Shown: piece by piece, positions 18,472 through 48,995 of the stretch | Layout: each line of letters opens with the position of its first letter | Numbering within the stretch: the stretch's first letter is position 1 | From: an uncultured Sphingomonadaceae bacterium | GTDB taxonomy: Bacteria; Pseudomonadota; Alphaproteobacteria; Sphingomonadales; Sphingomonadaceae | Reading direction: 5' to 3' | Length of the DNA stretch: 64,000 nt | NCBI GenBank assembly: GCA_903871605.1 | Contig: CAIQHF010000038.1 | Location: 1-64,000, forward strand | Program-made: the position numbers and the translations under genes | Notes under the pieces: model-generated | Seen by the model: the letters and a program-made list of their open reading frames with translations, nothing else | Databases searched by the model: none | What the model was told of the DNA's origin: nothing

Positions 18472-19609
18472 GCCGCGTCCCAAAGGCGCATCGGTGGTGG
18501 TGATCGGCGCGGGCGTCACGGGCTTGAGCGCGGCGTGGTGGCTGGCGCGATCGGGGATCGACGTGATCGTGCTCGACAAGGGCATCGTCGGCTGGGAGGC
18601 GTCGGGGCGCAACGGCGGCGGCGCGTCGCACTATCAGAGCCCGCTGTTCGCCGAGGAGCAGCGGCTCTGGCCGCAGATGGACGAGCTGCTCGGCTATCCG
18701 ACCGAATATGTCCGCGAGCGGATCATCATCCAGCGCGATCCCGCCTTGCTCGACCATTATCGCGCGGTCGGGCGGATGTGCAGCGCGATGGGCTACCGCG
18801 TGGACGATCTGGACAGCCGGCAGGCGCAGCAGGCGGTGCCGCTCACCGACGAGACCTGCCTCGGCGGAATCCATCTGCGCTTCGGCGGCCATGCCAATCC
18901 ACAACGCACAGTTCAGGCCTATGCCTGGGCGATCCAGGATCTCGGCGGTCGCATCCTCCAGCATTGCCCCGCCCTCGCGATCGAGACCGCAGGCGGGCGC
19001 GCGGTCGCGGTCGAGACGCCGCGCGGGCGGATCGCCTGCGACGCGTTGGTCGTCGCCGCGGGGCCGCAGGCGGGGATGCTGCTCGCGCCGCTCGGCATCG
19101 ACTTCCCGATCGCGTCAGCGCGCGCGGAGATGATCGTCACCGAACCAGCACCGCTGATGGCGATCGGCGGCGTCGATGGCAACGGGCTCTACGGCCGCCA
19201 GACGTTGCGCGGCAATCTCGCCTTCGGTGGCGGCCCGCATGAATGGATCGCGACACGGCCCGACGGCCCCAGCGCGCGTCCCGTATCGCCGCTGGTCCGC
19301 AATCTGGCGCGGCGCGTGGCGGAGATGTTTCCCCGGGCGGCCCACCTCAACGTGATCCGGTCGTGGGCGGGGATCGTGGAGAACACGCCGGACGGGCGGC
19401 CGATCCTCGACCGGCTACGCGATCCTGGCAATGTCACGGTCGCGACGATGTCGGGGGTCGGCTTCGGCTTGTCGCCGGCGAGCGGTCATGCGATCCGTGA
19501 TCTCGTGGTCGACGGTGCCTGCTCCTTTGCCGACATTGCCAAGCTTGGCCTGACGCGCTTCGCCGGGCTCGCGCCCGATTGGCGCGAACGTCGCGGCTGG
19601 GCGGCATGA
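18464..19609 (+). CDS. FAD-dependent amine dehydrogenase, DAO family (HcnC/OoxB-like)
   Basis: 381-residue flavoenzyme of the D-amino acid oxidase family. The FAD motif is VVVIGAGVTGLSAAWWLARSG near the N-terminus, with EASGRNGGGASHYQSP just after and the C-terminal FAD contact in VATMSGVGFGLSPASG. It resembles the catalytic partner of HcnB/OoxA-type proteins and its gene overlaps that gene by 8 bp, so the two probably form one complex oxidising a C-N bond of a secondary amine or imino acid. The 4 bp overlap with soxB continues the coupled train. The exact substrate is not readable from sequence. Confidence 0.87.
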   Translation: MSEPRPKGASVVVIGAGVTGLSAAWWLARSGIDVIVLDKGIVGWEASGRNGGGASHYQSPLFAEEQRLWPQMDELLGYPTEYVRERIIIQRDPALLDHYRAVGRMCSAMGYRVDDLDSRQAQQAVPLTDETCLGGIHLRFGGHANPQRTVQAYAWAIQDLGGRILQHCPALAIETAGGRAVAVETPRGRIACDALVVAAGPQAGMLLAPLGIDFPIASARAEMIVTEPAPLMAIGGVDGNGLYGRQTLRGNLAFGGGPHEWIATRPDGPSARPVSPLVRNLARRVAEMFPRAAHLNVIRSWAGIVENTPDGRPILDRLRDPGNVTVATMSGVGFGLSPASGHAIRDLVVDGACSFADIAKLGLTRFAGLAPDWRERRGWAA

Positions 19610-20862
19610 CACGCTATTCGGCGCTCGCGCTGCTCCGCGCAGGGCTCACCGGCCAGCGCCACTGGCCGCGCGCGTGGCGCGATCCCTCACCCAGGCCGAA
19701 CTACGAGGTGATCGTGATCGGCGGCGGCGGCCACGGGCTCGCCACCGCTTATTATCTCGCCAAGGTCCACGGCATCCGCAATGTGGCGGTGCTCGAGCGC
19801 GGTTGGATCGGCGGCGGCAATACCGGTCGCAACACCACCATCGTGCGCTCCAACTATCGTCTTCCCGCGCTCCACAACCTGTTCGATTTCGCGCTCGGCC
19901 TGTGGGAGGGGATGAGCGACGAGCTCAATTACAATGTCATGTTTTCGCCGCGCGGCGCGCTGTTTCTCGGCCATTCGGACGCCGACATGACCGCGCTCGC
20001 GCAGCGGGGCGACGCGCTGCGCTGCGACGGGATCGACGCCGAACTGATGACCGCGAACCAGCTCCGCGAGCTCGTCCCGCTGCTCGACATGTCGCCCGCG
20101 GCGCGCTTCCCGATCCATGGCGGGCTGATGCAGCCGCGCGGCGGCACCGCGCGGCACGATGCGGTCGCCTGGGGCTATGCGCGCGCTGCCGACCGCCTTG
20201 GCGTCGACATCATCCAGAATTGCGAGGTGACCGGTTTCACCGTGGCGGGCGGCCGCGTCACCGGGGTCGAGACGACGCGCGGCGCGATCGGCGCGGGCCG
20301 CGTCGGCATCTGCGTCGCGGGCAATAGCGGTCCGGTGGCGGCGCTTGCCGGGATCAGGCTGCCAATCGAGGCGCAGACGCTGCAGGCCTTCGTCACCGAG
20401 CCGGTCAAGCCGATGATCGACACGGTGATCATGTCGCAGTCGCTACACTGCTACATCAGCCAGTCCGACAAGGGCGGGATCGTGCTCGGCGGCGATCCCG
20501 ATCAGTTTCCGAGCTATGCGCAGCGCGGCCTGCCGCCCCGGATCGCGCAGGCCGCAGCGGAAGCGATCGCGCTGGTGCCCGCCTTGTCGCGCCTGCGGAT
20601 GGTGCGCTGCTGGGCGGGCACCACCGACATGAGCTTTGACGGATCGCCGATCATCTCGGCCTTGCCGGTCGACGGGCTCTATCTCAACGGCGGCTGGTGC
20701 TATGGCGGGTTCAAGGCGACGCCGGGATCGGGCTATACCTACGCGCATCTGCTCGCGACGGGCGCGGCACACCCGCTTGCTGCTCCGTTCGCGCTCGATC
20801 GCTTCGCCACGGGCGCGACGATCGACGAAACAGGGGTCGGCTTCATGCCGCAATTCCACTGA
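19606..20862 (+). CDS. soxB: Sarcosine oxidase beta subunit
   Basis: 418-residue beta subunit of heterotetrameric sarcosine oxidase, which oxidises N-methylglycine to glycine with transfer of the methyl carbon to tetrahydrofolate. Length and the MTRYSALALLRAGLTGQRHW start are typical. The FAD motif is VIVIGGGGHGLATAYYLAK, followed by GWIGGGNTGRNTTIVRSNY. H184 in GGTARHDAVAWGY corresponds to the residue that covalently binds FMN. The C-terminal substrate-site region has NGGWCYGGFKATPGSG. Gene order B-D-A-G with 1-8 bp overlaps is the standard sox operon. Confidence 0.95.
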   Translation: MTRYSALALLRAGLTGQRHWPRAWRDPSPRPNYEVIVIGGGGHGLATAYYLAKVHGIRNVAVLERGWIGGGNTGRNTTIVRSNYRLPALHNLFDFALGLWEGMSDELNYNVMFSPRGALFLGHSDADMTALAQRGDALRCDGIDAELMTANQLRELVPLLDMSPAARFPIHGGLMQPRGGTARHDAVAWGYARAADRLGVDIIQNCEVTGFTVAGGRVTGVETTRGAIGAGRVGICVAGNSGPVAALAGIRLPIEAQTLQAFVTEPVKPMIDTVIMSQSLHCYISQSDKGGIVLGGDPDQFPSYAQRGLPPRIAQAAAEAIALVPALSRLRMVRCWAGTTDMSFDGSPIISALPVDGLYLNGGWCYGGFKATPGSGYTYAHLLATGAAHPLAAPFALDRFATGATIDETGVGFMPQFH

Positions 20863-21125
20863 TGATGCGGATCGATTGCCCCCATTGCGGTCCGCGTGCG
20901 CAGAGTGAGTTTGGCTATGAGCGCACGCTCGATTCGATCGTCACGCTCGACATGCCGGCCGACGAGGCGATGGCGCGGCTCTATGCACGCGCCAATCCGC
21001 GCGGCCTCGACGACGAACTGTGGCGGCATGGCCTGGGCTGCCGCCAGTGGATCGTGCTCCGCCGGCACCGCGTCACGCACGAGATCGTCGGCGTCGCGGC
21101 GTTCGATCCGGCGATCCTATCGTGA
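20862..21125 (+). CDS. soxD: Sarcosine oxidase delta subunit
   Basis: 87-residue small subunit of tetrameric sarcosine oxidase. It keeps the zinc-site residues of the family, CPHC (C6, C9) and H56/C60 in WRHGLGCRQW, with the RAQSEFGYERTL stretch between. The ATG at 20862 overlaps the soxB stop by one base; ATG 20865 is equally possible. SoxD is a structural zinc protein in the complex. Its presence shows the four-subunit enzyme type rather than a monomeric sarcosine oxidase. Confidence 0.93.
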   Translation: MMRIDCPHCGPRAQSEFGYERTLDSIVTLDMPADEAMARLYARANPRGLDDELWRHGLGCRQWIVLRRHRVTHEIVGVAAFDPAILS

Positions 21126-23902
21126 ACGGGCCCGGCCGGATCGGTCGCGACGAAACCGCCACGCTGCGCTTCACCTTCGACGGCCGGTCGCTGTGTGCGC
21201 GCCCCGGCGATACGCTCGCGGCGGCGCTGTTGGCGAACGGCGTTGGCCTGGTCGCGCGCAGCTTCAAATATCATCGCCCGCGCGGGATCATGGCGGCGGG
21301 GGTCGAGGAGCCCAATGCACTGGTGACCGTGGGCGAGGGCGGACGCACCGAACCCAATACGCGCGCGACCGACGTCTTCGTCTATGAAGGGATGGTCGCG
21401 CGCAGTCAGAATCGCTGGCCGAGCCTGGCGTTCGATCTCGGCGCAGTGAACGCGCTCGCCGCGCCCGTCCTCGCCGCGGGCTTCTACTACAAGACCTTCT
21501 TCGGGCCACCCGCGCGGTGGATGGTCTACGAGAAGCTGATCCGGCGGGCCGCGGGGCTCGGCAAACCGCCGACGCTCGCCGATCCCGACCGCCACCAGCA
21601 TCGCGCCGCCTTTTGCGACGTGCTCGTCGTCGGCGGAGGTCCCGCCGGGCTGGCGGCGGCGGACGATGCGGCGCGAGGCGGTGCGCGCGTGATCCTCGTC
21701 GAGCAGGATCGCGCGCTGGGAGGCTGCGCGCTCCGCGGCGACGGCGAGATGCCGACGTCAGACGCGGCGTTGCGCGCCGCCGGCGTGCGCATCCTGACAC
21801 GGACGACCGCGTCGGGCGTGTGGGACCATGGCTTCGTGACGCTGGCCGAACGGCTGGTCGAGCCCGGCGAGGCGCCGCCGCCCGGCCAGCCGGCGCAGCG
21901 CCTCTGGCACGTTCGCGCCGAGCGGATCGTGCTCGCGACCGGCGCGATCGAGCGACCAGTGACCTTTGCGGGCAATGATCGCCCCGGCGTGATGCTGTCG
22001 CAGGCGGTCCGGACCTATATCCGCCGCTTCGACGTGCTCCCCGGCCGGCGCGTCGTGATCGCAACCAATAATGACGATGCCTATCGTACCGCCGAGGCGG
22101 TTGCGGCAGCGGGCGGCGAGGTCGTCGCGATCCTCGATTCGCGTCCGGACTTCACCGAGGTTGCGCGGGCCGCGAAGGAGCGCTTTCGCGTGCACACCAA
22201 CGCCTTTCCCCATTCGACGAAGGGCCGCAGCGGCCGACTTCGTTCGATCGGTGCCGACATCTGGACCGAGCGGCATAGCTTCGACGCCGATCTGCTCGCG
22301 ATGTCGGGCGGCTTCACCCCGGTGGTCCATCTGCACAGCCAGGCCGGAGGCAAGCTCGATTGGCGGGCCGACATCCAGGCGTTCGTGCCGGGGGCGTCCG
22401 CGCAGGCGATCACCAGCGTTGGCGGTGCGGCAGGGGAGGTGGCGCCGATCGGCACGAATGCCGTGCACCTGCCCCATCCCAAGCACAGCTTCGTCGACTT
22501 CCAGAACGACGTTACCGCTGCCGACATCGATCTTGCCTGGCAGGAGGGCTATCGCTCGGTCGAGCATCTCAAACGCTATACCACGCTCGGCATGGCAACC
22601 GACCAGGGCAAGACGAGCAACATGGCGGCGCTGGCGCGGCTCGCATCGGTGGCTGGCGTCGATATCCCGCAGGCCGGGCTCACCACCTTCCGCGCGCCCT
22701 TCACGCCGCTGGCGCTGGGTGCGTTGGCTGGCCCCGATGGCGGCGGCCATGCCGCGCCGCGCCGCCGGCTCGCACTCCACGATCGTCACGCGGCGCTGGC
22801 GCCCGTCTGGCAGCCGCTCGGCTATTGGGACCGCCCGCGCGCCTATCCGGCGGCCGGCGAGAGCCTGAACGACGCCGCGATCCGCGAGGCGCGTGCGGTG
22901 CGCACCAGCGCGGGCATCATCGACGTCTCGACGCTCGCCAAGTTCGCTGTGTCGGGCCCCGACGCCGCCGCGCTGCTCGAGATGGTCTGCGCGACCGGCG
23001 TCGCCAAGCTCGGCGTCGGGCGCGGGCGCTACACCTTCATGCTGCGTGACGACGGCATGGTGATGGACGACGGAACCGTCTGGCGGCTCGACGAGACACG
23101 CTGGCTGCTCACCAGCTCGACCGGCGGCGCCGACCGGATGGAGGCGCATCTGAGCTATGTCCACCGCGTGCTCGCACCGCATCTTCGCGTCTCGGTGGTG
23201 GCACAACAGGAGCATTTCGCAGGGATCGCGCTGGCCGGGCCGCTCGCCCCCACCATTCTGGCAGGGCTCACCGGCCAGGCGCCGCCCGCGCATATGGGGC
23301 TCGCCGAGGCATCGATCGCGGCGGTCCGCGTGCTCATCCTGGCGGCGAGCTATAGCGGCGAGCGCGCCTTCGAAATCTATGCGCCGGGCGCTATCGCCGG
23401 CCCGGTGTGGGATGCGCTCGATCGTGCGACCTGCGCGCAAGGCGGCTGCCCCTACGGGCTCGAGGCGCTCGAATTTCTGCGGATCGAGAAGGGCCATGTC
23501 GTGATCGGCGCGGAGGCGGACGGGCGGACGACGCCGCACGATCTCGGGCTTGGACGGATGCTGCGCAAGGCGGGCGGCTATGTCGGCGCGCAGGCGCTCG
23601 GGCGCCCGGCCTTGTCCGCGCCCGACCGGCTGCAACTGGTCGGGTTGGAAACGGCCGAGGCCTCGCTCCCCGAAGGCGCGATGCTGGTCGCGCGGGCCGG
23701 TGCGCCGGTCGAGGGCCACGTCACCTCGGCGGCACAGCGCGTGCTCGGCCAAGGGGGTATCGCGCTCGGTCTGCTTGCGGGCGGCAGGGCAAGGCTCGGC
23801 GACCGTCTGATCGCCGCCTCGCCAACGCGGGGCCGGCATGTCGCGGTCACCGTCACCCAGCCGCTCTTCTACGATCCGGAAGGCGAGCGCTATCGTGACT
23901 GA
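21122..23902 (+). CDS. soxA: Sarcosine oxidase alpha subunit
   Basis: 926-residue alpha subunit. The N-terminal region (RFTFDGRSLCARPGDTLAAA, SFKYHRPRG) is the ferredoxin-like Fer2_4 domain without a cluster. Next comes the NAD-binding flavoprotein-like domain (VLVVGGGPAGLAAADDAA, then IVLATGAIERPVTFAGNDRP). From about residue 580 the C-terminus is the aminomethyltransferase-like domain that binds tetrahydrofolate and makes 5,10-methylene-THF. Translation starts at a GTG overlapping the soxD stop (GTGA). Size is normal for the family. This folate link explains the nearby purU. Confidence 0.94.
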   Translation: MNGPGRIGRDETATLRFTFDGRSLCARPGDTLAAALLANGVGLVARSFKYHRPRGIMAAGVEEPNALVTVGEGGRTEPNTRATDVFVYEGMVARSQNRWPSLAFDLGAVNALAAPVLAAGFYYKTFFGPPARWMVYEKLIRRAAGLGKPPTLADPDRHQHRAAFCDVLVVGGGPAGLAAADDAARGGARVILVEQDRALGGCALRGDGEMPTSDAALRAAGVRILTRTTASGVWDHGFVTLAERLVEPGEAPPPGQPAQRLWHVRAERIVLATGAIERPVTFAGNDRPGVMLSQAVRTYIRRFDVLPGRRVVIATNNDDAYRTAEAVAAAGGEVVAILDSRPDFTEVARAAKERFRVHTNAFPHSTKGRSGRLRSIGADIWTERHSFDADLLAMSGGFTPVVHLHSQAGGKLDWRADIQAFVPGASAQAITSVGGAAGEVAPIGTNAVHLPHPKHSFVDFQNDVTAADIDLAWQEGYRSVEHLKRYTTLGMATDQGKTSNMAALARLASVAGVDIPQAGLTTFRAPFTPLALGALAGPDGGGHAAPRRRLALHDRHAALAPVWQPLGYWDRPRAYPAAGESLNDAAIREARAVRTSAGIIDVSTLAKFAVSGPDAAALLEMVCATGVAKLGVGRGRYTFMLRDDGMVMDDGTVWRLDETRWLLTSSTGGADRMEAHLSYVHRVLAPHLRVSVVAQQEHFAGIALAGPLAPTILAGLTGQAPPAHMGLAEASIAAVRVLILAASYSGERAFEIYAPGAIAGPVWDALDRATCAQGGCPYGLEALEFLRIEKGHVVIGAEADGRTTPHDLGLGRMLRKAGGYVGAQALGRPALSAPDRLQLVGLETAEASLPEGAMLVARAGAPVEGHVTSAAQRVLGQGGIALGLLAGGRARLGDRLIAASPTRGRHVAVTVTQPLFYDPEGERYRD

Positions 23903-24383
23903 TCGCGACGTCTCCGTATCGATGGAACCGGCCGGCGAGGTGATCGCGCTCGATCTGTGGAGCGGCGCCGATGCGCCCGACCTATGCGGAAAGATCGCGC
24001 TGCTTCGCGTCGAGCCCCGCCGCTGGTGGCTTTTGGACGCCCGGGAGGCCGATCTGACGGCGATGATCGGCGCGCGCGGAGCTTGGGCGCCGATCGGCGG
24101 CGGCCTTGTTCGTGCGACGCTCACCGGGCCGGGCTGGCGCTCGCTGCTGATGGTCGCCGGGCTGTTCGACGCGGAGGATCCCGCGTTCGGCACCGGCGCG
24201 GTCGCCGCGACGGTGATCCATCACGTTCCGGTCCGGATTGCGGTCGTCGGCGAGACGTCGTGCGACGTTTATTGCGCAGCGAGCTACGCGCCGACGCTCG
24301 CCGGATTATGGGGCAGCGTCATCGGTCGTGAGCGCGTCTCGCTATCGCGCGAGCTGCCGTCCGCGACGATCGGATCGGAATGA
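23895..24383 (+). CDS. soxG: Sarcosine oxidase gamma subunit
   Basis: 162-residue gamma subunit, the least conserved and here somewhat short member of the sarcosine oxidase tetramer. Recognisable family features are LLRVEPRRWWLLD, GGGLVRATLTGPGWRSLL and PVRIAVVGETSCDVYCAASYA near the C-terminus, the truncated aminomethyltransferase-like fold. The GTG at 23895 overlaps soxA by 8 bp; an ATG at 23922 is an alternative. It is assigned partly by operon position. Confidence 0.85.
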   Translation: MTDRDVSVSMEPAGEVIALDLWSGADAPDLCGKIALLRVEPRRWWLLDAREADLTAMIGARGAWAPIGGGLVRATLTGPGWRSLLMVAGLFDAEDPAFGTGAVAATVIHHVPVRIAVVGETSCDVYCAASYAPTLAGLWGSVIGRERVSLSRELPSATIGSE

Positions 24384-25758: not shown

Positions 25759-26619
25759 TCAGCGGAAGACGATCGTCCGGTTGCCGCTGAGCAGCACGCG
25801 ATGCTCGAGATGCGCCTGCACCGCGCGGCCCAGCACGCGGCTTTCGGTATCCTGCCCCTGCGCGATCAGGTCCTCGACGCTGTCGGCATGATCGACGATC
25901 GAGACGTCCTGCGCGATGATCGGACCCTCGTCGAGATCGGGCGTGACGTAGTGCGCGGTCGCGCCCACCATCTTGACGCCGCGATCATAGGCGCGGTGAT
26001 AGGGGTTGGCGCCCTTGAAGCCGGGCAGGAAACTGTGGTGGATGTTGATCACGCGCCCGTCGAGCCGGCGGCACAGCGTGTCTGAGAGCACCTGCATGTA
26101 GCGCGCGAGGATGATCAGATCGACCTGCTGCGCCTCGACCAGCGCGAGCAGCGCCTGTTCCTGCTCGCGCTTGTTCTCGGGCGTGATCGGGAGATGATGA
26201 TAGGGGATGCCCTCATGTTCGACGCGGCGCTGCCAGGTCAGGTGGTTCGAGACCACGCTCGTCACGGTCATCGGCAGGCGGCCGGTCGCGGTGCGATAGA
26301 GGAGATCGTTGAGGCAGTGGCCGCCTTTCGACACCATGATGATCGCGCGTGCCTTGGTCGCGGTGTCGTGCAGCTTCCAGTCGAGCCGCCACGCCGTGGC
26401 GACCGGCGCGAACGCCTCGCCGAACGCCTCGGGGGTCAGGCGGTCGGGCGCGGTGAACTTGACGCGCATGAAGAAGCGGCCCGTGCTGGCATCGCCATGT
26501 TGCGCGTTCTCGACGATGTTGCAGTCCTGCGAGACGAGCGAGTTGGCGACCGCGGCGACGATGCCCTTGCGGTCCTCGCAGGCGAACAGGAGAACGAATT
26601 GGCGGCTGTCTTTCGTCAT
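25759..26619 (-). CDS. purU: Formyltetrahydrofolate deformylase
   Basis: 286-residue PurU: releases formate and tetrahydrofolate from 10-formyl-THF. Residues 6-80 form the N-terminal ACT domain (LLFACEDRKGIVAAVANSL). The C-terminal formyltransferase-fold domain holds NIHHSFLPGFKGANPYHRAY and the catalytic Asp in YVTPDLDEGPIIAQ. It converges on the sarcosine oxidase operon with only 29 bp between. PurU is often found with sarcosine and glycine betaine genes because it drains methylene/formyl-THF made by sarcosine oxidase and restores free folate. Confidence 0.96.
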   Translation of the reverse strand: MTKDSRQFVLLFACEDRKGIVAAVANSLVSQDCNIVENAQHGDASTGRFFMRVKFTAPDRLTPEAFGEAFAPVATAWRLDWKLHDTATKARAIIMVSKGGHCLNDLLYRTATGRLPMTVTSVVSNHLTWQRRVEHEGIPYHHLPITPENKREQEQALLALVEAQQVDLIILARYMQVLSDTLCRRLDGRVINIHHSFLPGFKGANPYHRAYDRGVKMVGATAHYVTPDLDEGPIIAQDVSIVDHADSVEDLIAQGQDTESRVLGRAVQAHLEHRVLLSGNRTIVFR

Positions 26620-26719: not shown

Positions 26720-28732
26720 CTAGTCCCGGTAGCGATCCACCGCATCGCCCAACGCCGCGCGAAGCGGCTCGAGCCAGCGTTCGTATTTCTTCCACTGGTC
26801 GAGCCCGTCGCGGAAGATCGGCTGGCGGACCTGTTCGGAACTCGGCGTGCGCACGCTGCGCCGGCTTTTGTGAAACGCGACGCAGCCGGGTTCGAAGGCG
26901 AGGCCGACATGGTCGAGGACGCGGCGCACGCTGCCCTCCAGATCGCCCACGACATCCTCGTGATGGACGCGCAGCACGCGGCCGGGGAGCGCCCGGTCCC
27001 AATGTGCCATGACATCGAGATAGGTGCGGTAGTAGCGCGCGATTTCCTCGATGCCGTAGGAGAATTCCTGGCCGTTGGCGAAGAGTTGCTTGAGGTTGCT
27101 GAAGCAGCACGACATCGGCTCGCGCCGCGCATCGATGATCCGGGCGTTGGGCAGCATCAGGTGGATCAGCCCGACGTGGCGGAAATTGTTGGGCATCTTG
27201 TCGATGAAATAGGGCCTGTCGGTGCGATAGACGCGTGTATCCGCCAGGTAGCGCTCGCCGAGCGCGCGGAAATCGGCCTGCGGCATATCCGCCAGCACGC
27301 CGGGGTAACGCGGGTGGTCGAGATCGGGATCGCGGCCCTGCAATTCCTGCACGATGCGTTGGATGTCGGGCAGCTCCTGCGTGCCCTCGACCTGCGAGTG
27401 CGAGGCGAGGATCTGTTCGAGCAGCGTCGAGCCCGACCGCGGCAGGCCGACGATGAAGATCGGGTCCGGCGCGGGATCGCCCCAGCCGGCGCGGCGCGCG
27501 AAGAATTCGGGCGTGCAGACCGCGATCTGTTGCGCGGTATTGGTTTCGAACACTTTGGCGCGATAGCGGCCTTCGCCGCGCTTGAGCGCATTTCCGCGAT
27601 CATAATATTGCCAGGATTCGGCGGTCTCGTCGCGATCCTCCAGCGCCTTGGCGAGCGCGAAGCAGAGATGGATGCGATCCTCCAGCACCGGCGGCGGCTT
27701 GGCCTCCTCGGCGCGCATCCGCACGATCTCGTCGTCGGTGAAGCGATAGGTCTTGAGGTTGGCAAGGCTCCAATAGGCGTCGCCGAAATCGGGACGACCG
27801 GCAGCGGCGGCGCGATAGGCGTCGATCGCGTCGGGTAGCTGCCCGATCGTCTTGAGCGCGTGACCGAGCCAGAGATGGACATCGGGCATGTCGGGCGCCT
27901 CCGCGAGCATCGCGCGGTAGAGCGTTATCGCCTCGGCATGCTCGCCGAGGCCGACCGCGGTGGTGGCGGCGAGCGCGCGATAGTCGGCATGGTGCGCGTC
28001 GATCGCGAGCAGCGTTGCGAGCTGCGCGCGGGCCTGGGCATATTTGTGCCGTGCGACGAGGCAGCGGGCATAATCGTAGCGCGCCGCATGATGGTCGGGG
28101 GCGATCGTCACCACCGCCTCGAGCAACAGCTCGGCATCGTCGAGCACGTCGTGCGCCATGCCGATCTTGGCGAGCAGCCGCATCGCCTCGGGGTGATTGC
28201 CATGCTGGACGAGATAGGCGCGGACGATCTGCTCCGCGGGCGCCAGGTCGCCGTCCGAGAAGAGCGACGTCGCGGCTACCACTTCGGGCGGCAGCGACGC
28301 GAGCACGGCGCGATGCCCCGCTGCCATCGCGGCATTGTCGGCATCGCCCGTGAGGCGATAGACGCCCTCGAGCATCCGCCAGCTCATCGGCAGCGCGGGG
28401 TTGATGTTGACCGCGCGGAGCAGCGCGTCGATCGCGGCGGGCGCGTCCTTGCGCGCGACATGGCAGAGCCCGCGTTCCTGGTGCATCAGGCTGAAACCCG
28501 GCTGGAGCGCGGCGAGCGTCTCGAGTGTCGCCAGCGATTCCGCGATCCGGCCGAGATGGCGCTGGCTGGTCGCGGCGAGCAGCAGCAGGTCGCGATTCTC
28601 GGGGAAGTCGGCAAGCAGGCCGCGCAGCTTCGCCAGCACCTCCTCGTGGCGGCCGTCGTTCGCCAGTCGGCGCAGGCGGCCGAGCTCCTGCTCGAGCGGC
28701 AGCGCGGGGCGGAGAAGGGTCTGGGTGGTCAT
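26720..28732 (-). CDS. TPR-containing sulfotransferase family protein
   Basis: 670 residues. The first about 390 are alpha-helical TPR-like repeats (for example AIDALLRAVNINPALPMSWR, AITLYRAMLAEAPDMPDVHL). The C-terminal part is a sulfotransferase domain with the 5'-phosphosulfate-binding loop PIFIVGLPRSGSTLLEQIL at 427-442 and the later ARREPMSCCFS region for the 3'-phosphate. The sulfate acceptor is unknown. It follows a TonB receptor gene on the same strand, with a terminator-like hairpin between; TonB receptor/TPR-sulfotransferase pairs recur in sphingomonads. No signal peptide is seen, so it is cytoplasmic. Confidence 0.88.
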   Translation of the reverse strand: MTTQTLLRPALPLEQELGRLRRLANDGRHEEVLAKLRGLLADFPENRDLLLLAATSQRHLGRIAESLATLETLAALQPGFSLMHQERGLCHVARKDAPAAIDALLRAVNINPALPMSWRMLEGVYRLTGDADNAAMAAGHRAVLASLPPEVVAATSLFSDGDLAPAEQIVRAYLVQHGNHPEAMRLLAKIGMAHDVLDDAELLLEAVVTIAPDHHAARYDYARCLVARHKYAQARAQLATLLAIDAHHADYRALAATTAVGLGEHAEAITLYRAMLAEAPDMPDVHLWLGHALKTIGQLPDAIDAYRAAAAGRPDFGDAYWSLANLKTYRFTDDEIVRMRAEEAKPPPVLEDRIHLCFALAKALEDRDETAESWQYYDRGNALKRGEGRYRAKVFETNTAQQIAVCTPEFFARRAGWGDPAPDPIFIVGLPRSGSTLLEQILASHSQVEGTQELPDIQRIVQELQGRDPDLDHPRYPGVLADMPQADFRALGERYLADTRVYRTDRPYFIDKMPNNFRHVGLIHLMLPNARIIDARREPMSCCFSNLKQLFANGQEFSYGIEEIARYYRTYLDVMAHWDRALPGRVLRVHHEDVVGDLEGSVRRVLDHVGLAFEPGCVAFHKSRRSVRTPSSEQVRQPIFRDGLDQWKKYERWLEPLRAALGDAVDRYRD

Positions 28733-31797: not shown

Positions 31798-33315
31798 ATG
31801 AACGGTTCTGAGGCGGTTTTGCTCGATCGGCCCGCTGGCTGGCGCGAGATCGTGGCGATCGCCAGCGGCGCGCCGCCCGCGCTCTCGTCCGACGCCATGG
31901 CGCGGCTCGATCGCAGTCGCGAATGGCGCGACGCGATCGTGGCGCGCGCGCGTCCCGCCTATGGGATCAATACAGGCGTCGGCGCGCTGTGCGACGCGGT
32001 AGTCGGCTTCGACCGGCAGCAGGCGCTGTCCCGCAATATCGTGATGAGCCACGCCAGCGGGATCGGCGCGCCGCTGCCGGACGCCGAAACGCGCGCGATC
32101 ATCGCTGCGCAGATCAGCAATTTCCTCCACGGCGTCTCGGGAGTCCGTCCCGCGATCGTCGAGGCGCTTTGTGCATTGCTCGCCGCCGATTGCCTGCCGG
32201 TCGTGCCGTCGCGCGGCTCGGTCGGCTATCTCAGCCATGCGGCAGCGATCGGCCTCGTGCTGATCGGCGCGGGCAGCGCCGTGCAGCGCGGGGAGACGCT
32301 CAGCGGTGCCGAGGCGATGGCGCGGATCGGCACCGCGCCGTTCGTGCTGGAGGCGAAGGAGGGGTTGAGCCTGGTCAGCGGGACGCCCTGCGCGACCGGG
32401 CTTGCCTGCCTTGCGCTCGATCGTACCGAACGGCTGCTCGACTGGGCGGACGCGGCGGCGGCGATGAGCTACGAAAATCTCGGCGGCCAGGCGGACGCGT
32501 TCGCCGCGGAGACGCTGGCGTTGCGCCGATCGGCGGGGCTCGCGCGGACCGGCGCTGCGTTGCGCGCCTATCTCGATGGCAGCGCGATGCTCGCGGCGCG
32601 CGCCGGTTCGCGAGTCCAGGATCCGCTCAGCCTGCGCGCCATCCCGCAATTTCACGGCGCGGCGCGCGACGTGCTCGGCGATGTCGAGGCGGTCGTCGTC
32701 AACGAACTCGCCAGCGCCACCGACAACCCCGCGCTTGCCGGCCCTCTCGCCGCGCCGCGTGTGCTGATGGGCGCGCAGGCGGTCGGCATCGGGCTGGCGC
32801 TGGCGATGGATCAACTCGGCGTCGTGGTCGCGCAACTTGCGATGATCGCGGAGCGTCGGATCGATCGCCTGGTCAATCCGCTGGTGAGCGGCCTGCCGGC
32901 TTTTCTCGCCGTCGATGGCGGGGCCTGCTCCGGCTTCATGATCGCGCAATATGTCGCGGCCTCGCTGGTCGCGGAGAATCGCCGCCTGGCGTCGCCCGCG
33001 AGCCTCGACGGTGGGGTGACCTCGGGGTTGCAGGAGGATATCCTCGCGCACGCGACGCCGGCGGCCGCCAAGGTACTGGCGATCCTCGACAATCTTGCGC
33101 AGCTGTTGGCGATCGAACTACTGTGCGCGGCGCAGGCCTATGACCTGCAGCGCGCCCGGGGTGGGAGCGCGGCGCGCACCGAGGCGATCCGCACGCAGAT
33201 CCGCGAGGTGATCCCGATCTACGCCGACGACCGGCCGCTCAATGAGGATTTTGCGGCGATGCGGGCGGTCATGCAGGCGCCTCCGCGCGGTCGGCCGGAC
33301 GAGGTCGCCGCATGA
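31798..33315 (+). CDS. HutH-family protein lacking the MIO tripeptide
   Basis: 505-residue member of the aromatic amino acid ammonia-lyase fold. Conserved features present: AYGINTGVGAL (Tyr of the lid loop), MSHASGIG, SLRAIPQFHGA, ASATDNPAL and SLDGGVTSGLQED. The MIO cofactor of true histidine ammonia-lyases forms from Ala-Ser-Gly in GSVGASGDLAPL; here the sequence at 140-150 is GSVGYLSHAAA, exactly three residues shorter and without Ala-Ser-Gly. The following LVNGTQ motif is LVSGTP. So lyase chemistry of the usual kind is doubtful. It overlaps hutD by 4 bp. The ATG at 31798 has GGGGAAAGG upstream. Confidence 0.85.
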   Translation: MNGSEAVLLDRPAGWREIVAIASGAPPALSSDAMARLDRSREWRDAIVARARPAYGINTGVGALCDAVVGFDRQQALSRNIVMSHASGIGAPLPDAETRAIIAAQISNFLHGVSGVRPAIVEALCALLAADCLPVVPSRGSVGYLSHAAAIGLVLIGAGSAVQRGETLSGAEAMARIGTAPFVLEAKEGLSLVSGTPCATGLACLALDRTERLLDWADAAAAMSYENLGGQADAFAAETLALRRSAGLARTGAALRAYLDGSAMLAARAGSRVQDPLSLRAIPQFHGAARDVLGDVEAVVVNELASATDNPALAGPLAAPRVLMGAQAVGIGLALAMDQLGVVVAQLAMIAERRIDRLVNPLVSGLPAFLAVDGGACSGFMIAQYVAASLVAENRRLASPASLDGGVTSGLQEDILAHATPAAAKVLAILDNLAQLLAIELLCAAQAYDLQRARGGSAARTEAIRTQIREVIPIYADDRPLNEDFAAMRAVMQAPPRGRPDEVAA

Positions 33316-33881
33316 AGCTGCTCGGCGCCCACGATCATCGCCGCATGGCCTGGAGGAACGGCGGCGGCGAGACGCTCGAGGTCGCGATCTTTCCGGCCGA
33401 CGCCGGTATCGACGCGTTCGGCTGGCGGGTCAGCATGGCGATCGTCGCGCAGGACGGTGCCTTCTCCATCTTCGCCGGCGCTGACCGCACGCTCGTCCTG
33501 CTCGACGGCGACGGCATCACGCTCGAGGTCGCCGGCCGGGATGCGGTCACGCTCTCGGTCGACAGCCCGCCTTTTGCCTTTCCGGCCGACGTCGCGACGA
33601 TCGCGCGATTGCGCGGCGGTACGATCACCGATCTCAACGTGATGACCGCGCGCGGCCGCTATGTCCATGTCGTCGAGCGATGCGTCGGGCCGCGGATGCT
33701 CGTTGCCGGTCCGTCGGAAACGCTGTTGCTGCTCGGCGTTGGCGCGACGGTCGAGGCAAGCGGCGAGCGTGCCGCGCTCGGCGCGGGCGACCTTGTTCGC
33801 CTCGCGCCCGACGAGCGCGCGCATGTCTCGCCCGCGGCCGGCGCGACGTGGCTTCTGATCGCGATCCGGCCGGCGGGCTGA
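33312..33881 (+). CDS. hutD: HutD family protein
   Basis: 189-residue cupin-like protein of the HutD/Ves family. Family stretches are MAWRNGGGETLEVAIFP, FGWRVSMAIVAQDGAFSIF and RTLVLLDGDGI. HutD is found with histidine utilisation genes and has been proposed to bind urocanate or a related metabolite as a governor of the pathway. Here it is coupled (ATGA) to an unusual HutH-like protein, with no hutU, hutI or hutG nearby, so its ligand may be different (inference). Confidence 0.88.
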   Translation: MKLLGAHDHRRMAWRNGGGETLEVAIFPADAGIDAFGWRVSMAIVAQDGAFSIFAGADRTLVLLDGDGITLEVAGRDAVTLSVDSPPFAFPADVATIARLRGGTITDLNVMTARGRYVHVVERCVGPRMLVAGPSETLLLLGVGATVEASGERAALGAGDLVRLAPDERAHVSPAAGATWLLIAIRPAG

Positions 33882-33883
33882 TC

Positions 33884-34828
33884 TCAGCGTTCGCGTACGT
33901 GGGGATGTGCCACGGGTTCTTTGGCGCGCAAGCCATAGTCGCGCATCACGGCCCGATAGCTCGCAAATACATAGCCGTCGTTGATCGCCCGCCAGTCCGC
34001 GCGCTGCGACCGATAGGCGGTAGGCAACGCGTACCAGGGCAGCCCGGGCAGCTTGTGGTGGACGAGATGGAGGTTGTTGTTGAGGAACAGCAATGACAGC
34101 CAGGATCGCTCGACGATCACCGTCCTGTGGTCGGGATGCGCCGCCCACCGGTGCTCGCAAAACGACCGGATCGCGAGCAGCGACAGGCCGAGATAGGCGG
34201 CGACGAGATAGGCCCAGACGGGCATGGCGAACACGAGGCGGACGATCGTCATCACCGCGAGCAGTCCGATAGCGTGCAATCCCCACGCCAGTCGGTTCGC
34301 ACGCGCGTCGCGGTCACCGGCGGTGAACATGGCTCTGATCTCGCCGCGCAGGAAGCGTATCGCTCCGATCGCCGGACCGATCGCCACCCTTGCCAGCAGG
34401 CGGTTATTCCACCCGAGCACCACCCGCAGCGCCGACGGCAGACTCTGATAGTCGCGGCGCGACAGATAATAGCTCTCTGGATCGTCATAGGGATCGGTCA
34501 GCCGGTCATCGGCGTGGTGGCGGAGATGGAGGTCGCAGTAGCGGCGAAAGGGCACGAGCAGCCCCAGCGGGAGAAACACCAATGCCTCGTTCCATCCCGC
34601 ATGCGAGGTCGGGTGACGATGGACCGCCTCGTGCTGGAGCGACGAGTGCAGCGCGATCGCGAGCGCGAGCAGCCCGACCGACACGGGCGCCGCGACCGCA
34701 TAAAGCATGCCCGCTGCGAACCACACCGCGTAGCAGCCGACGATCAGCGCCAGCGTGCGCCACTCGAGCGATCCCCGCCGCGCCGGCAGGCGGACGCGTA
34801 TATAATTCTTGTCCACTCCGTGTCTCAT
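33884..34828 (-). CDS. Membrane fatty acid desaturase family protein
   Basis: 314 residues with four or more membrane helices and the three histidine boxes of the desaturase/hydroxylase family: H61SSLQHE, H101LRHH and H254LVHH. These bind a di-iron centre that inserts a double bond or hydroxyl into a lipid chain, or acts on a carotenoid-like substrate; the exact substrate cannot be read. It converges on hutD with a 2 bp gap and diverges from the XRE regulator. An ATG at 34828 gives the best family length. Confidence 0.88.
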   Translation of the reverse strand: MRHGVDKNYIRVRLPARRGSLEWRTLALIVGCYAVWFAAGMLYAVAAPVSVGLLALAIALHSSLQHEAVHRHPTSHAGWNEALVFLPLGLLVPFRRYCDLHLRHHADDRLTDPYDDPESYYLSRRDYQSLPSALRVVLGWNNRLLARVAIGPAIGAIRFLRGEIRAMFTAGDRDARANRLAWGLHAIGLLAVMTIVRLVFAMPVWAYLVAAYLGLSLLAIRSFCEHRWAAHPDHRTVIVERSWLSLLFLNNNLHLVHHKLPGLPWYALPTAYRSQRADWRAINDGYVFASYRAVMRDYGLRAKEPVAHPHVRER

Positions 34829-34941
34829 CGTCTGCCCATCCCCCGTCACTCCCTCGTCGGCGCCAATGTCCTGTGCGCGACTAGACAATGCAATGCGGCA
34901 ATGGTGACGAAACGTTGAGAATGCGCACGATATCTGATATT

Positions 34942-34969: not shown

Positions 34970-35803
34970 ATGGATAAACGACGTCTCGCCGACATCTTCC
35001 ACGACCGGCTTCGATCCCTGTTCGAGCGATCGCGGCAGAGCCAGTCGGCGTTCGCCGGGGCGATCGGGATCGATCGCTCGGCGCTGTCGCTGCTGCTCTC
35101 GGGCAAGACGACGCGCCTGCCGCGCGTCGAGACGCTGCTGACGATCGCCGAGCGTCATTCGGTCACGCTCGATTGGCTGCTCGGCGTGTCGCAGGATGAG
35201 GGCATGACCGGCGCGATGCTGTCGAGCGGCGAGATCGAGACCACCGAAGAGGATGGTGCCAGCCTGTTGATGCGCTGGCACGCCGAGGCTGCGGGCAGCA
35301 AGATCCGCTATGTGCCCGCGCGGATCCCCGATCTGCTGCGGACCACCGACGTGATCGCCTACGAGGCATCGGCTTCGCATCAGAGCGCGATGGCGCAGGT
35401 CGAGGATGCCGTGTTCCGGCTCGACTACAACCGCGCCGCCGGCACCGACATGGAATCGTGCATGCCGCTCCAGACGCTCGAGCAGTTCGCCGCGGGGACG
35501 GGGATTTGGAGCGACCTGCCCAAGCCCGCCCGCCAGGCACAGATCGTCCACATGGCCAATCTGATCGACGAGCTTTATCCGTCCTTCCGACTCTTCCTGT
35601 TCGACGGACGCGAACGCTTCTCGATCCCCTATACGATCTTCGGATCGACGCGCGTCGCCGTGTTCGCCGGGCAGATGTATCTCGTGCTCAACAGCGCCGA
35701 GACGATTCGCACGATGCAGATGCAGTTCGAGGGGCTGATCCGCCACACGCGCGTGCATGCACACGAAGCGGCGGATTTCGTGCGGTCGCTCCATGTCCGC
35801 TGA
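34970..35803 (+). CDS. XRE-family helix-turn-helix regulator with unknown effector domain
   Basis: 277 residues. The lambda-repressor-like DNA-binding domain fills residues 10-75 (SQSAFAGAIGIDRSALSLLL, then VETLLTIAERHSVTLDWLLG). The remaining about 200 residues are not a family I can name; they are mixed alpha/beta, with RFSIPYTIFGSTRVAVFAGQ and a helical C-terminus, and probably sense a ligand. It overlaps the PhnD-like gene by 11 bp, so the two are translated together. An 18 bp palindrome lies just upstream of its start. Confidence 0.82.
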   Translation: MDKRRLADIFHDRLRSLFERSRQSQSAFAGAIGIDRSALSLLLSGKTTRLPRVETLLTIAERHSVTLDWLLGVSQDEGMTGAMLSSGEIETTEEDGASLLMRWHAEAAGSKIRYVPARIPDLLRTTDVIAYEASASHQSAMAQVEDAVFRLDYNRAAGTDMESCMPLQTLEQFAAGTGIWSDLPKPARQAQIVHMANLIDELYPSFRLFLFDGRERFSIPYTIFGSTRVAVFAGQMYLVLNSAETIRTMQMQFEGLIRHTRVHAHEAADFVRSLHVR

Positions 35804-36629
35804 GGCGCCGCGCCGTGCGGGGAGGATCGCCAGCCTCGCCATGTACCGCGATCCGCCCGAGATTGCCGCTGCGACGCGCGCGCTATGGGCCGCGCTGGGC
35901 GACCGCCTGCGCGACGCCGGTCTCGTCGAGGCGCCCGCGCGGCTCGACGAGACGATCGCGCACGACGCCGCGTGGCTCGATCCACGGCTGCTGCTCGCGC
36001 AGACCTGCGGATACCCCTTCGTCACGCGCCTGCGCGGCCGCGTCCGGCTTGTCGCGACGCCGGTCTATGCGCACGCGGGCTGCGACGGCGTGCTGGTGGG
36101 CAGCTTTGTCGTCGTGCACGAACGGTCTTCCGCGCGCGGCATCGTCGATCTGCGCGGCGCGACCGTCGCGGTCAACGACCCACATAGCAATTCGGGGATG
36201 AACCTGCTGCGCCGCCTCGTCGCGCCGCATGCGGTTGCCGGGCGCTTCTTCGGGCGCGTGATCGCAAGCGGCAGCCATGTCGCGAGCCTCGCGCTGGTCG
36301 CAGGCGGGCAGGCGGCGACGGCGGCGATCGACTGCGTCACCTACGGCAACCTGGCGCGCTTCGCGCCGGAGCAGCTCGCCGGAATCCGCATTCTCGCCAC
36401 GACCGCCAAGACGCCGGGACTGCCGCTGATCACGCGCGCCGCTGCCGGCGAGCGGGAGGTGACGATGCTGCGGGATGGCTTGACCGATATGTTGGCCGAT
36501 CCGTCGACCGCGCGGCTGCGCGATACGCTCGGGCTTCGCGGGATCGAGATACTGTCCGACGACGCATATGAGATCGTGCTCGAGATCGAGCGCGATGCAG
36601 CGGCGCTCGGCTTTCCGGTTATCGCGTGA
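35793..36629 (+). CDS. PhnD-like substrate-binding protein without signal peptide
   Basis: 278-residue protein of the phosphate/phosphonate-binding (PhnD, periplasmic binding protein type 2) family. Characteristic stretches are YPFVTRLRGRVRLVATPVYA, IVDLRGATVAVNDPHSNSGMNLLR and GGQAATAAIDCVTYG. The N-terminus (MSAEAPRRAGRIASLAMYRD) is not a secretion signal, and no ABC permease or ATPase is adjacent, so a cytoplasmic binding or sensing role is more likely than transport. It is coupled to the XRE regulator upstream and may modulate it (inference). Confidence 0.75.
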   Translation: MSAEAPRRAGRIASLAMYRDPPEIAAATRALWAALGDRLRDAGLVEAPARLDETIAHDAAWLDPRLLLAQTCGYPFVTRLRGRVRLVATPVYAHAGCDGVLVGSFVVVHERSSARGIVDLRGATVAVNDPHSNSGMNLLRRLVAPHAVAGRFFGRVIASGSHVASLALVAGGQAATAAIDCVTYGNLARFAPEQLAGIRILATTAKTPGLPLITRAAAGEREVTMLRDGLTDMLADPSTARLRDTLGLRGIEILSDDAYEIVLEIERDAAALGFPVIA

Positions 36630-38430: not shown

Positions 38431-38602
38431 TTCCGGACTCCGCTGCTAAAGGCGTCGGCAAGGCCCTGCATACGGTGCAAAGAGGCTGCTGGAGGGGAGA
38501 TCGGGCGGGCCAAGCCCCCTTTTCCGCCGATGGCAGCGCTATCGCATCCGGGTGCAAAGGAGACGCGCTCTAGCGTCCCGGGTCCGATGGAGGGGACTAC
38601 AC

Positions 38603-41428
38603 ATGCTCAAGACAAACCTGCTCGGCTCGGCGCGCACGCCGCTGCTTCTGACTTGTTCGGTTTCGGCCCTGTTCGCGACGATGGGCGCGACCGCCGCTTT
38701 TGCGCAGGACGCGACCCCGGCCGCGCAGACCATGAGCGGCACGACCGCGCCGAGCGGCGATCAGGACCAGACCGCCGCGGCGCAGCCCGATGCCGGGCAG
38801 GCGATCGTCGTCACGGGCGTTCGCGCAAGCCTTCAGTCCGCCGAAAATATCAAGCGCAATTCGCCGCAGATCGTCGATTCGATCGTCGCCGAGGACATTG
38901 GCAAGCTCCCCGACCGCAACATCGCCGAGGCGCTGCAGCGCATTTCGGGCATCCAGATCCAGCGCCAATATGGCGAGGGCAGCTCGGTCCAGATCCGCGG
39001 CCTCACCCAGGTTCGCACCGAGCTCAACGGGCGCGACATCTTCACGGCCGGCACCGGCGGCGGCGACAGCACCAGCCCTCCCGGCACGTTGAGCCTCGAG
39101 GACGTGCCCTCGGAACTGCTCGCGGGAATCGACGTCTATAAAAATCCGTCGTCGGACCTCATCGAGGACCAGCTCAGCGGCACGATCAACCTGCGCACGC
39201 GCAAACCATTCGATTTCAGCGGTTTCAAGATCTCGGCCGCGGTCGAGAACACCTATTATGACCTCGTCAAGACGAGCAAGCCGTCGGGCTCGCTGCTGAT
39301 CAGCGACCGCTGGAACACGCCGATCGGCGAGATCGGCGTACTCGTCAGCGCCTCCTATCAGCGGACCGCCTTCCGCCAGGACACCGTCTCGACCGAGCCG
39401 TTCAACACGCTCGACACCAGCCTCAACGCCGACGGCACGCCGCATGCGCCGGCGGACTATGCCGCCGCGCAGACGCTCGGGCGGCTCGGCCAGACGACCA
39501 CGCTGGCGCACGGCACCGGCATCGGCGAAGTCTATGGCGATCGGCGCCGCTTCGGGCTCGATGCTTCGGTCCAGTGGCGGCCGAGCGACACGCTCGAATT
39601 CACCGGCGAGGTGTTCCGCAACAAGTATAAGTTCCGTTTCGACGATTACAGCTATTTCGCCGAGCCGGCCGGCGCGCAGATGTCGCCGCTTCCCGGCGCC
39701 GCCTTCACCTTCGCCCCGAACGGCGACGTGGAGACCGGCACCTATCAGAACATCGCGCTCGCCGCGAACACCAGCCTCGAGACCCGCCAGTCGACCACGA
39801 CCGACTATTCGCTCAACGGCAAGTGGAAGGCGACCGACCACCTGACCGTCACCGCGGACGCGCAATATGTCGACTCGACGACCAAGGACGTGCGCTCGAT
39901 CATCGGCCTCAACGGCGTCGGCGACGGCACGCTGGTGCAGGATGTCACCGGCTCGATCCCGGCCTCGACGATCAGCACGCCGGAAGGTCTGCTCAACCCG
40001 GCAAGCTACAATGCCGCTTTCTATCTGGATGACCTCAACCACGCCAAGGCCAAGGACAAGTCGGGCCGGATCGATGCCGAATATCGCTTCGACGACGGCA
40101 TCCTGCAGTCGGTCAAGGCGGGTTTCCGCTATTCCGATCGGACCAACGTCTATAGCGATACCGGCTATCGCTACGTGCAGCTGTCGGGCGTTCCGACCGA
40201 TCTCGAGACGGTGAGCCTGACCGACTTCTTCCGCGGCGACGCGACGTTCCCGACCGAGGGGCTGTTCTTCTCTCGCGACACGACGCTCAACTATGATGCG
40301 ACGCGTGCCGCGCTCGGCATCTCGACGCCGGCGCAATATCTGCCGAGCGGGACCAGCGCACAGTCGCAGAAGACCTATGCCGGCTATGTCGCGGCATTCT
40401 TCAAGGCGGATCAGCTGCCGGTGCCGATCGACGGCAATGTCGGCGTCCGTTTCGTCCGGACGCAGGAATCGAGCTCGGGCTACTATCAGCAGACCGACCT
40501 GATCACGCAGCCCGACGGACAGCAGAGCACGGGCAACACCACGTCTAGCCTGGTCGCGTTCGGCAAGAGCTACAATTCGTGGTTGCCGAGCCTCAACCTG
40601 CGCGCGCACCTGACCGACAAGCTTCAGCTGCGTTTCGCTGCATCGAAGAACATCTCGCGCCCGACGCTGAACCAGCTCAACCCGGCGCTGTCGATCACCG
40701 AGCCGGGCAAAGCCCAGATCAATCAGGAGCATGATACGAGCGGCGGCAACCCGTTCCTCAAGCCGATGAAATCGACCAATCTCGACGTTTCGGCGGAATG
40801 GTATTTCTCGCGCACCGGATCTTTGACGGTTGCGGGCTTCTACAAGGACATCAAGGACTACATTCAGACGGGCATCTCGAACCGTGACGTCACCTTTACC
40901 GACGGCGTGACGGCGACGTACAATGTCACGTCTTACAACAATGTCGAAAACGCCAAGGTGAAGGGCGTCGAGGCAGCCTACCAGCAGTTCTTCGACTTCT
41001 TGCCCGGCCCGTTGAGCGGTCTCGGCATGCAGGCCAACTTCACCTTCGTGGATTCAAAGGCGCCAAGTCCCGCGACCGAGGGGCCGGTGCACGAGGTGTC
41101 GCTGGAGGGCCTGTCCAAATATAATTACAACATCGTTGGCATCTACGAGAAGGGCAAGCTCTCGGCGCGCGTTGCCTATAATTGGCGCAGCAAGTTCCTG
41201 CTGACGACGTCGGGCAATGGCTCGGGCAATCTGCCGGTGTTCGAGAAGCCGTTCGGCCAGCTCGATGCCTCGGTCACCTTCGACGTGACGCCGCACTTCT
41301 CGTTGACGCTCCAAGGCGTCAACCTGACGAGCACGATGACCTCGACCTATTACGGCATCGAGACCCGTCCGCGCGATGCGATCGTCAATGATCGCCAGAT
41401 CAGCGGCATCGCCCGGGTCACCTTCTAA
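38603..41428 (+). CDS. TonB-dependent receptor, carbohydrate-type
   Basis: 941 residues. Signal peptide ends at AAFAQDA; the plug begins with QAIVVTGVRASLQSAENIKR, followed by EALQRISGIQIQR and LSGTINLRTRKPFD, the pattern of the Xanthomonas/Caulobacter-type sugar receptors. The last barrel strand ends ISGIARVTF. The ATG at 38603 has GGAGGGG upstream. It is the only outer-membrane importer in the 36.7-58.4 kb locus, so it should take up the oligosaccharide that the periplasmic glycosidases trim. A strong terminator follows the gene, separating it from the fucose pathway genes. Confidence 0.94.
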   Translation: MLKTNLLGSARTPLLLTCSVSALFATMGATAAFAQDATPAAQTMSGTTAPSGDQDQTAAAQPDAGQAIVVTGVRASLQSAENIKRNSPQIVDSIVAEDIGKLPDRNIAEALQRISGIQIQRQYGEGSSVQIRGLTQVRTELNGRDIFTAGTGGGDSTSPPGTLSLEDVPSELLAGIDVYKNPSSDLIEDQLSGTINLRTRKPFDFSGFKISAAVENTYYDLVKTSKPSGSLLISDRWNTPIGEIGVLVSASYQRTAFRQDTVSTEPFNTLDTSLNADGTPHAPADYAAAQTLGRLGQTTTLAHGTGIGEVYGDRRRFGLDASVQWRPSDTLEFTGEVFRNKYKFRFDDYSYFAEPAGAQMSPLPGAAFTFAPNGDVETGTYQNIALAANTSLETRQSTTTDYSLNGKWKATDHLTVTADAQYVDSTTKDVRSIIGLNGVGDGTLVQDVTGSIPASTISTPEGLLNPASYNAAFYLDDLNHAKAKDKSGRIDAEYRFDDGILQSVKAGFRYSDRTNVYSDTGYRYVQLSGVPTDLETVSLTDFFRGDATFPTEGLFFSRDTTLNYDATRAALGISTPAQYLPSGTSAQSQKTYAGYVAAFFKADQLPVPIDGNVGVRFVRTQESSSGYYQQTDLITQPDGQQSTGNTTSSLVAFGKSYNSWLPSLNLRAHLTDKLQLRFAASKNISRPTLNQLNPALSITEPGKAQINQEHDTSGGNPFLKPMKSTNLDVSAEWYFSRTGSLTVAGFYKDIKDYIQTGISNRDVTFTDGVTATYNVTSYNNVENAKVKGVEAAYQQFFDFLPGPLSGLGMQANFTFVDSKAPSPATEGPVHEVSLEGLSKYNYNIVGIYEKGKLSARVAYNWRSKFLLTTSGNGSGNLPVFEKPFGQLDASVTFDVTPHFSLTLQGVNLTSTMTSTYYGIETRPRDAIVNDRQISGIARVTF

Positions 41429-41480
41429 GCCGACGATGCGGATCGAGGTCGCGTCATCCCCCATCCGTCTCTCCCCCCTG

Positions 41481-41511
41481 TGGCCGGAGCGTTCGCGCTC
41501 CGGCCAGTTTT
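41481..41511 (+). terminator. Intrinsic terminator with TTCG tetraloop
   Basis: A perfect 11 bp stem (TGGCCGGAGCG / CGCTCCGGCCA) closed by a TTCG tetraloop is followed by GTTTTG. It lies 52 bp after the TonB receptor stop and before the permease gene. Confidence 0.88.
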
Positions 41512-41569
41512 GTCGCTAGACGGCGGGCAGGATGTTCCGCGCGGTGCGGACCGGATGAGAGGCGTCGAC

Positions 41570-46786: not shown

Positions 46787-46797
46787 AGGACGTATCG

Positions 46798-47995: not shown

Positions 47996-48010
47996 ACCGG
48001 AGCGCAGACG

Positions 48011-48988: not shown

Positions 48989-48995
48989 TCGGATC

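Follow-up and report, generated by a model that had tools for sequence, protein, structure and literature searches.

The window, a stretch of 64,000 nucleotides from an uncultured Sphingomonadaceae bacterium, holds a gene for a HutH-like protein whose loop lacks the MIO-forming Ala-Ser-Gly, and this gene overlaps a hutD gene by 4 nt. The frame of the lyase gene is open from the ATG at 31798 to a stop codon ending at 33315 (505 aa), with an AAAGG upstream by our own reading and an alternative ATG at 31723; the hutD ATG lies at 33312. The gene is thus intact and coupled to hutD, as an earlier note on this DNA had described it. The protein scores 473.8 bits against Lyase_aromatic (PF00221), above the gathering score, and has the fold of that family, and the product of the overlapping gene scores 159.2 bits against HutD (PF05962; gathering 25). 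The features considered here are the following.

31798..33315, plus strand: MIO-less HutH-like protein (GYL type), a predicted trimethylamine-lyase of a histidine betaine
32215..32238, plus strand: GSVGYLSH codons, the MIO loop minus three residues
33312..33881, plus strand: HutD, the only PF05962 match of the genome
28839..31469, minus strand: TonB-dependent receptor, with relatives in the clusters of Novosphingobium Chol11 (55%) and of G001, a genome of the window's genus (63%)
26720..28732, minus strand: TPR-sulfotransferase, with relatives in the clusters of Chol11 (60%) and G001 (62%)
25759..26619, minus strand: formyl-THF deformylase PurU, over the TIGR00655 cut-off, a circumstantial member
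33884..34885, minus strand: fatty-acid-desaturase-family protein, start uncertain
34970..35803, plus strand: XRE-type regulator, 89% identical to the regulator of the Chol11 cluster
35757..36629, plus strand: PhnD-like binding-protein-fold protein, its start by eye unlike a signal peptide
19579..24383, plus strand: sarcosine-oxidase-type genes, circumstantial (soxB passes its cut-off, soxA falls a little short, and soxD and soxG match weakly)

Elsewhere in the window, positions 38552-53584 form an apparent L-fucose catabolic island with a TonB receptor-like gene, a FucP-type symporter, an aldo-keto reductase, an altronate-type dehydratase, an SDR, an FAA hydrolase and an alpha-L-fucosidase, and positions 5780-11118 encode an XdhC-type protein together with FAD-binding and MoCo-binding molybdenum hydroxylase subunits.

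Alignment with the P. putida HAL showed that residues 142-145 (Ala-Ser-Gly-Asp) correspond to a single Tyr in the window protein, an in-frame deletion that leaves Tyr at HAL 142, a gap at 143-145 and no MIO-forming Ala-Ser-Gly. The loop is therefore exactly three residues shorter, as previously claimed, but its codons lie at 32215-32238 and not at 32209-32235. Ala-Ser-Gly does occur elsewhere in the window protein, at residues 22-24 and 86-88; 40/63 GYL rows contain no such tripeptide anywhere, and residues 86-88 are Ala-Cys-Gly in Chol11. The change of LVNGTQ to LVSGTP is likewise confirmed by the alignment, with Pro in 58/63 GYL rows and Ser in 3/63. Tyr53, His83, Arg283 and Glu414 are present in the window protein and in 63/63 GYL rows, in line with the retention of active-site motifs described before, but two pocket changes had been missed: Tyr280 is Leu in 63/63 GYL rows, the window protein included, and Phe329 is Ala in the window protein and in 61/63 GYL rows. 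Tyr280 is present in 61/62 MIO rows, and the remaining row is a mutant entry, 1gkj (Y280F). At two further pocket positions the window copy departs from the majority of its homologues (Asn195 to Ser, His328 to Gln). Its TIGR01225 score of 427.5 bits lies below the HutH equivalog cut-off of 539.15. From the alignment with the 63 GYL rows, copies of the window (L002, L083) were removed, as were rows identical to or contained in others.

The earlier note had left out ergothionase, a MIO-free member of the fold with a known reaction. By our own description of the 12 ergothionase-type rows compared, the loop deletion is one residue in 12/12, against three in the window protein, and Lys stands at HAL 386 in 11/12 rows, against 0/31 GYL rows and Tyr in the window protein. 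Leu or Ile occupies the Tyr280 position in 11/12 of these rows.

Because alignment rows were classed by the loop itself or by origin, loop counts within them are true by construction, and the independent count is that of the named loci: the shortened loop is found in 52/52 homologue loci at 49-73% identity, and the MIO is kept in 28/28 more distant loci (35-45% identity). The same gap in all 52 loci excludes the sequencing error that had been considered. Moreover, dN/dS between the window gene and its nearest relative, that of Chol11, is 0.25. With the loop common to 52/52 loci and this ratio, the window gene is under purifying selection and is neither an error nor a relic.

The homologues at 59-73% identity come from Novosphingobium Chol11, Rhizobiaceae and Aurantimonadaceae; a Roseibium homologue is 50% identical, and Burkholderia homologues (~62%) are plasmid-borne. 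Plasmid records matching at E<=1e-85 number 176, counted by similarity with loops not read individually; in the 60 plasmid rows listed, the annotated lyase gene under the match, where present, is named histidine ammonia-lyase. At E<=1e-90 the gene is present in 1/397 genomes of the family, namely its own, and in 9/385 genomes of the class, its own counted, and nine genomes of the same genus gave no match above 39% identity. From these counts the gene was likely acquired by transfer; the argument is one of distribution, since GC does not stand out (lyase gene 0.711, window 0.674, the genome's own hut region 0.695).

In a tree built with the loop columns left out, which also left out 15 rows, 22 GYL rows group together (SH-aLRT 99), and the window protein pairs with that of Chol11 (100). 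With the loop columns included, 30 GYL rows group with support 100. A branch with SH-aLRT 99 sets off thirteen ergothionase-type rows, and the window protein is not among these. As to a single or an independent loss of the MIO, the AU test allowed both a joint clade of GYL with ergothionase (p 0.62) and one of GYL with MIO (p 0.61), in a tree whose two outgroup rows lie apart from each other, and fold comparison gave no separation between HAL and ergothionase. Near the GYL gene of Aureimonas endophytica lies a second, long-branched MIO-less HutH relative (L047:18734-20125, minus strand) with GSVGYLIATSH and, where LINGTQ is expected, LISNACE. It joins GYL weakly (support 84 with the loop columns, 78 without) and possibly has another activity.

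The window gene is an extra paralogue in its genome, since one further PF00221 match there, on contig C12, is a normal HutH with an intact MIO motif (607.9 bits; TIGR01225 660.8 bits) in a hutF / hutI-hutH-hutG-hutU cluster. The absence of hutU, hutI and hutG reported previously thus holds beside the window gene but not for the genome. HutU matches once in the genome, with 80% identity to the canonical reference, and EgtD, the enzyme that makes hercynine, also has a match there, above its cut-off. The eight other GYL-carrying genomes covered by the EgtD search had no match and would therefore scavenge hercynine.

Gene context was compared in the 52 named GYL loci, with flanks of up to 10 kb, some ended by contig ends. 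A gene like hutC, whose product senses urocanate, is present in 47/52 loci, a betaine-type binding protein in 40/52 and hutF in 30/52. The MIO-less clade does not always neighbour hutD, a point the earlier note had wished to check: hutD is found in 28/52 loci, and in 11/52 its start lies no more than 200 nt downstream. PF05962 matched nothing in the assemblies of Chol11 and Roseibium, both of which carry a GYL protein, and HutD looks like a general member of the Hut regulon. A MIO hutH also lies within 13/52 loci, which makes redundancy of the two unlikely. The 28 MIO loci, mostly from other phyla and rhizobial references, are a poor control for context, and a matched control was assembled from 13 GYL-carrying genomes, the window's own included, which gave 14 canonical hutH loci. 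A betaine-type binding protein occurs at 0/14 of these loci, whose flanks are ~8 kb or less and which leave out two genomes with GYL and hutH in one cluster (G788 and G790). The cluster of the window itself showed no betaine ABC transporter, and among the genes considered none was recognised as coding for a TMA-degrading enzyme.

A common arrangement in Ensifer is hutC / hutF - betaine ABC - GYL - hutD; in Rhizobium and relatives it is hutF - (betaine ABC) - GYL - hutI - hutH - hutG - hutU - hutD, and in two Aureimonas records hutC / hutF - GYL - hutI - hutG - hutU - hutD. On plasmids of the R. leguminosarum group, hutC neighbours a polar-amino-acid-type ABC transporter, and GYL comes next. 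Around the Aminobacter and Erwinia copies, neither hut genes nor OpuAC-type genes are annotated; on the Aminobacter plasmids L155, L158 and L196, the GYL-type relative without annotated hut neighbours is itself annotated as histidine ammonia-lyase. Canonical HutH is kept in 14/15 GYL genomes searched, Chol11 being the exception. Five rhizobial genomes hold, besides GYL, a further paralogue best matched by ergothionase, which clusters with an amidohydrolase in 5/5 and with a HutU-like gene in 4/5.

In Chol11, the GYL protein is the sole PF00221 match in the assembly, and its cluster comprises hutF and a hutI-hutG-hutU row in which hutG follows hutI without an intervening hutH. These hut genes and GYL adjoin genes related to the PhnD-like, XRE, desaturase, TonB and sulfotransferase genes of the window, and a choline-sulfatase lies nearby. 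The G001 cluster carries an ergothionase-type HutH relative amid relatives of the window's TonB receptor (63%), sulfotransferase (62%), desaturase (40%) and PhnD-like gene (43%), as well as a glycine-betaine-type transporter made up of a fused OpuAC-permease and a betaine-type ATPase, and an ornithine-cyclodeaminase-family gene; despite the ergothionase-type enzyme, G001 has only one HutU match. Two different MIO-free enzymes therefore sit among related partner genes.

In Chol11, in G001 and on two Rhizobium plasmids, relatives of the window's desaturase gene lie next to MIO-less lyases, and desaturase and PhnD-like genes also pair without any PF00221 gene. Seven relatives of the PhnD-like protein (35757-36629) likewise have, by eye, no signal-peptide-like start. 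A desaturase-family gene often lies beside the gene for this protein, which may be a cytosolic binding-protein-fold enzyme. In L170:8004-16679 and L096:6056-13752, PhnD-like, desaturase and GYL genes are followed by a molybdenum-hydroxylase-like set, with an N-carbamoyl-amino-acid hydrolase on the opposite strand of L170, a possible hydantoin branch after the lyase. Ergothionase-type lyases with a GSIGAGDL loop occur at L168:3127-8834 (Sinorhizobium B11) and L169:3140-8840 (Rhizobium acidisoli), where two LLM flavin oxidoreductases, an ornithine-cyclodeaminase-family gene and a PhnD-like gene accompany them; the set follows an ABC transporter, which in L169 is annotated as of the glycine betaine type. 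Upstream of the GYL row in Agrobacterium tumefaciens Ach5 pAt (L094, L191) are Zn-hydrolase and GST genes.

Purifying selection, fixed pocket changes outside the loop and gene context together provide good support for a protein that kept its fold and changed its activity. From these directly seen features and the loss of the MIO, we infer the reaction, the substrate and the roles of the neighbouring genes. The reading we favour, with slightly better than even confidence and by analogy, is that the window protein, with its HutH fold, would act as a MIO-free lyase and take trimethylamine off a trimethylated histidine (histidine betaine), most likely hercynine. Judging from the chemistry, ammonium would be too poor a leaving group for histidine to dispense with the MIO, and trimethylammonium would leave without it, yielding urocanate that ordinary HutU, HutI and HutF/HutG would degrade. 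Gene context makes a urocanate-yielding lyase likely: urocanate as product and hercynine as the most likely substrate are suggested because GYL sits with canonical Hut genes and the ergothionase-like paralogue with an amidohydrolase and a HutU-like gene. The TonB receptor would serve uptake, HutD would act as a Hut-regulon accessory, and sarcosine oxidase and PurU might handle the methyl groups, a circumstantial assignment. The betaine-type binding proteins found beside GYL but not beside canonical hutH, and the ergothionase-type enzyme amid related partners in G001, speak for this reading. Weighing against it are the cluster's lack of a visible betaine ABC transporter, the two off-consensus pocket residues, the Aminobacter and Erwinia copies outside any annotated hut context, and the desaturase and PhnD-like pairs that lack a PF00221 gene. 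Catalysis would differ in detail from that of ergothionase because GYL rows do not carry the ergothionase-type Lys at HAL 386.

The same chemistry could instead be applied to ergothioneine or its sulfonate, with thiourocanate or sulfo-urocanate as the product in place of urocanate, which we consider rather unlikely. It would suit the Agrobacterium pAt row, a candidate ergothioneine sulfonate pathway in which GYL stands with a HutU-like gene, a molybdopterin S/N-oxide reductase, an amidohydrolase and a betaine ABC transporter; a study of ergothioneine sulfonate catabolism in A. radiobacter exists, by its title, and the equivalent enzyme of G001 is of the ergothionase type. However, GYL lacks the ergothionase-type lysine, and the five rhizobial genomes devote a separate ergothionase-like paralogue to a cluster with an amidohydrolase and a HutU-like gene. 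The near-canonical single HutU of the window's own genome also points away from these substrates, though weakly, as G001 has one too. Loss of the cofactor, the 4-nt overlap here and the close downstream hutD in 11/52 loci would fit a non-catalytic protein, a histidine or urocanate sensor working with HutD. This binding role, proposed earlier alongside a new activity, is the weaker half of that proposal, given that hutD occurs in 28/52 loci and that Chol11 and Roseibium have GYL without a HutD match; with the four catalytic residues kept in 63/63 rows and GYL the only candidate found for making urocanate in Chol11, we judge it improbable.

The sole-source argument concerns Chol11 only, because the other 14 of 15 GYL genomes keep canonical HutH, and the Chol11 record carries the title of a MAG, in which the missing hutH could be a gap. 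Having hutI, hutG, hutU and hutF but no MIO HutH that could be found, Chol11 is also what would speak for a GYL clade that deaminates L-histidine without a MIO, in Chol11 as the sole such enzyme. If true, a reaction believed to require the MIO electrophile would here run without the cofactor, but this is very unlikely: changing the MIO serine to alanine lowered HAL and PAL activity over a thousandfold (PMC3903478), MIO HutH is retained in those 14 genomes, and betaine transporters accompany GYL and not canonical hutH. Finally, a decaying paralogue without function would account for the rarity of the gene in its family (1/397 genomes) and for its two off-consensus pocket residues, but the dN/dS of 0.25, the intact frame, the hutD overlap and the neighbours in common with Chol11 make it extremely unlikely.

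Should the favoured reading, elimination from a histidine betaine, be true, the GYL protein would be a second kind of MIO-free trimethylamine-lyase, one through which histidine betaines would enter the Hut pathway and which is encoded by a gene group on many plasmids and chromosomes. It would provide rhizobia and some sphingomonads with a route from hercynine to glutamate, account for the presence of a betaine transporter next to Hut genes and constitute a further source of trimethylamine. The GYL protein would also offer a test of how one fold performs such an elimination with and without a built-in cofactor.

Among the matches listed in an open-literature search, neither a hercynine lyase nor a MIO-less HutH clade appeared. 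Yan et al. (2022) reportedly described the ergothioneine sulfonate catabolic pathway of Agrobacterium radiobacter. Judged from the Agrobacterium pAt gene row, that pathway possibly uses a GYL-type lyase, and its lyase may belong to the GYL clade; the pAt row has HutU-like and molybdoenzyme partners, whereas none were seen beside the window gene. In comparison with HutH (TIGR01225), which has Ala-Ser-Gly, Tyr280 and Phe329, the window protein has no Ala-Ser-Gly in the loop, carries Leu280 and Ala329 and scores below the equivalog cut-off, with Tyr53, His83, Arg283 and Glu414 in common. Ergothionase releases trimethylamine from ergothioneine, without a MIO as stated in PMC13405746. The structure compared, the ergothioneine trimethylamine-lyase of Treponema denticola (PDB 6s7j), is 27% identical to the window protein and shares with it the lack of the MIO serine. 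Loop deletion, active-site lysine and clade all differ, however: ergothionase has a loop one residue short and Lys at HAL 386, the window protein a loop three residues short without that Lys, and ergothionase-type rows lie on a separate branch from the GYL clade. By sequence, therefore, the window protein is not ergothionase proper. Lacking the MIO, Tyr280 and equivalog-level score of HutH as well as the loop, lysine and tree position of the ergothionase type, it is by analogy probably ergothionase-like in its working.
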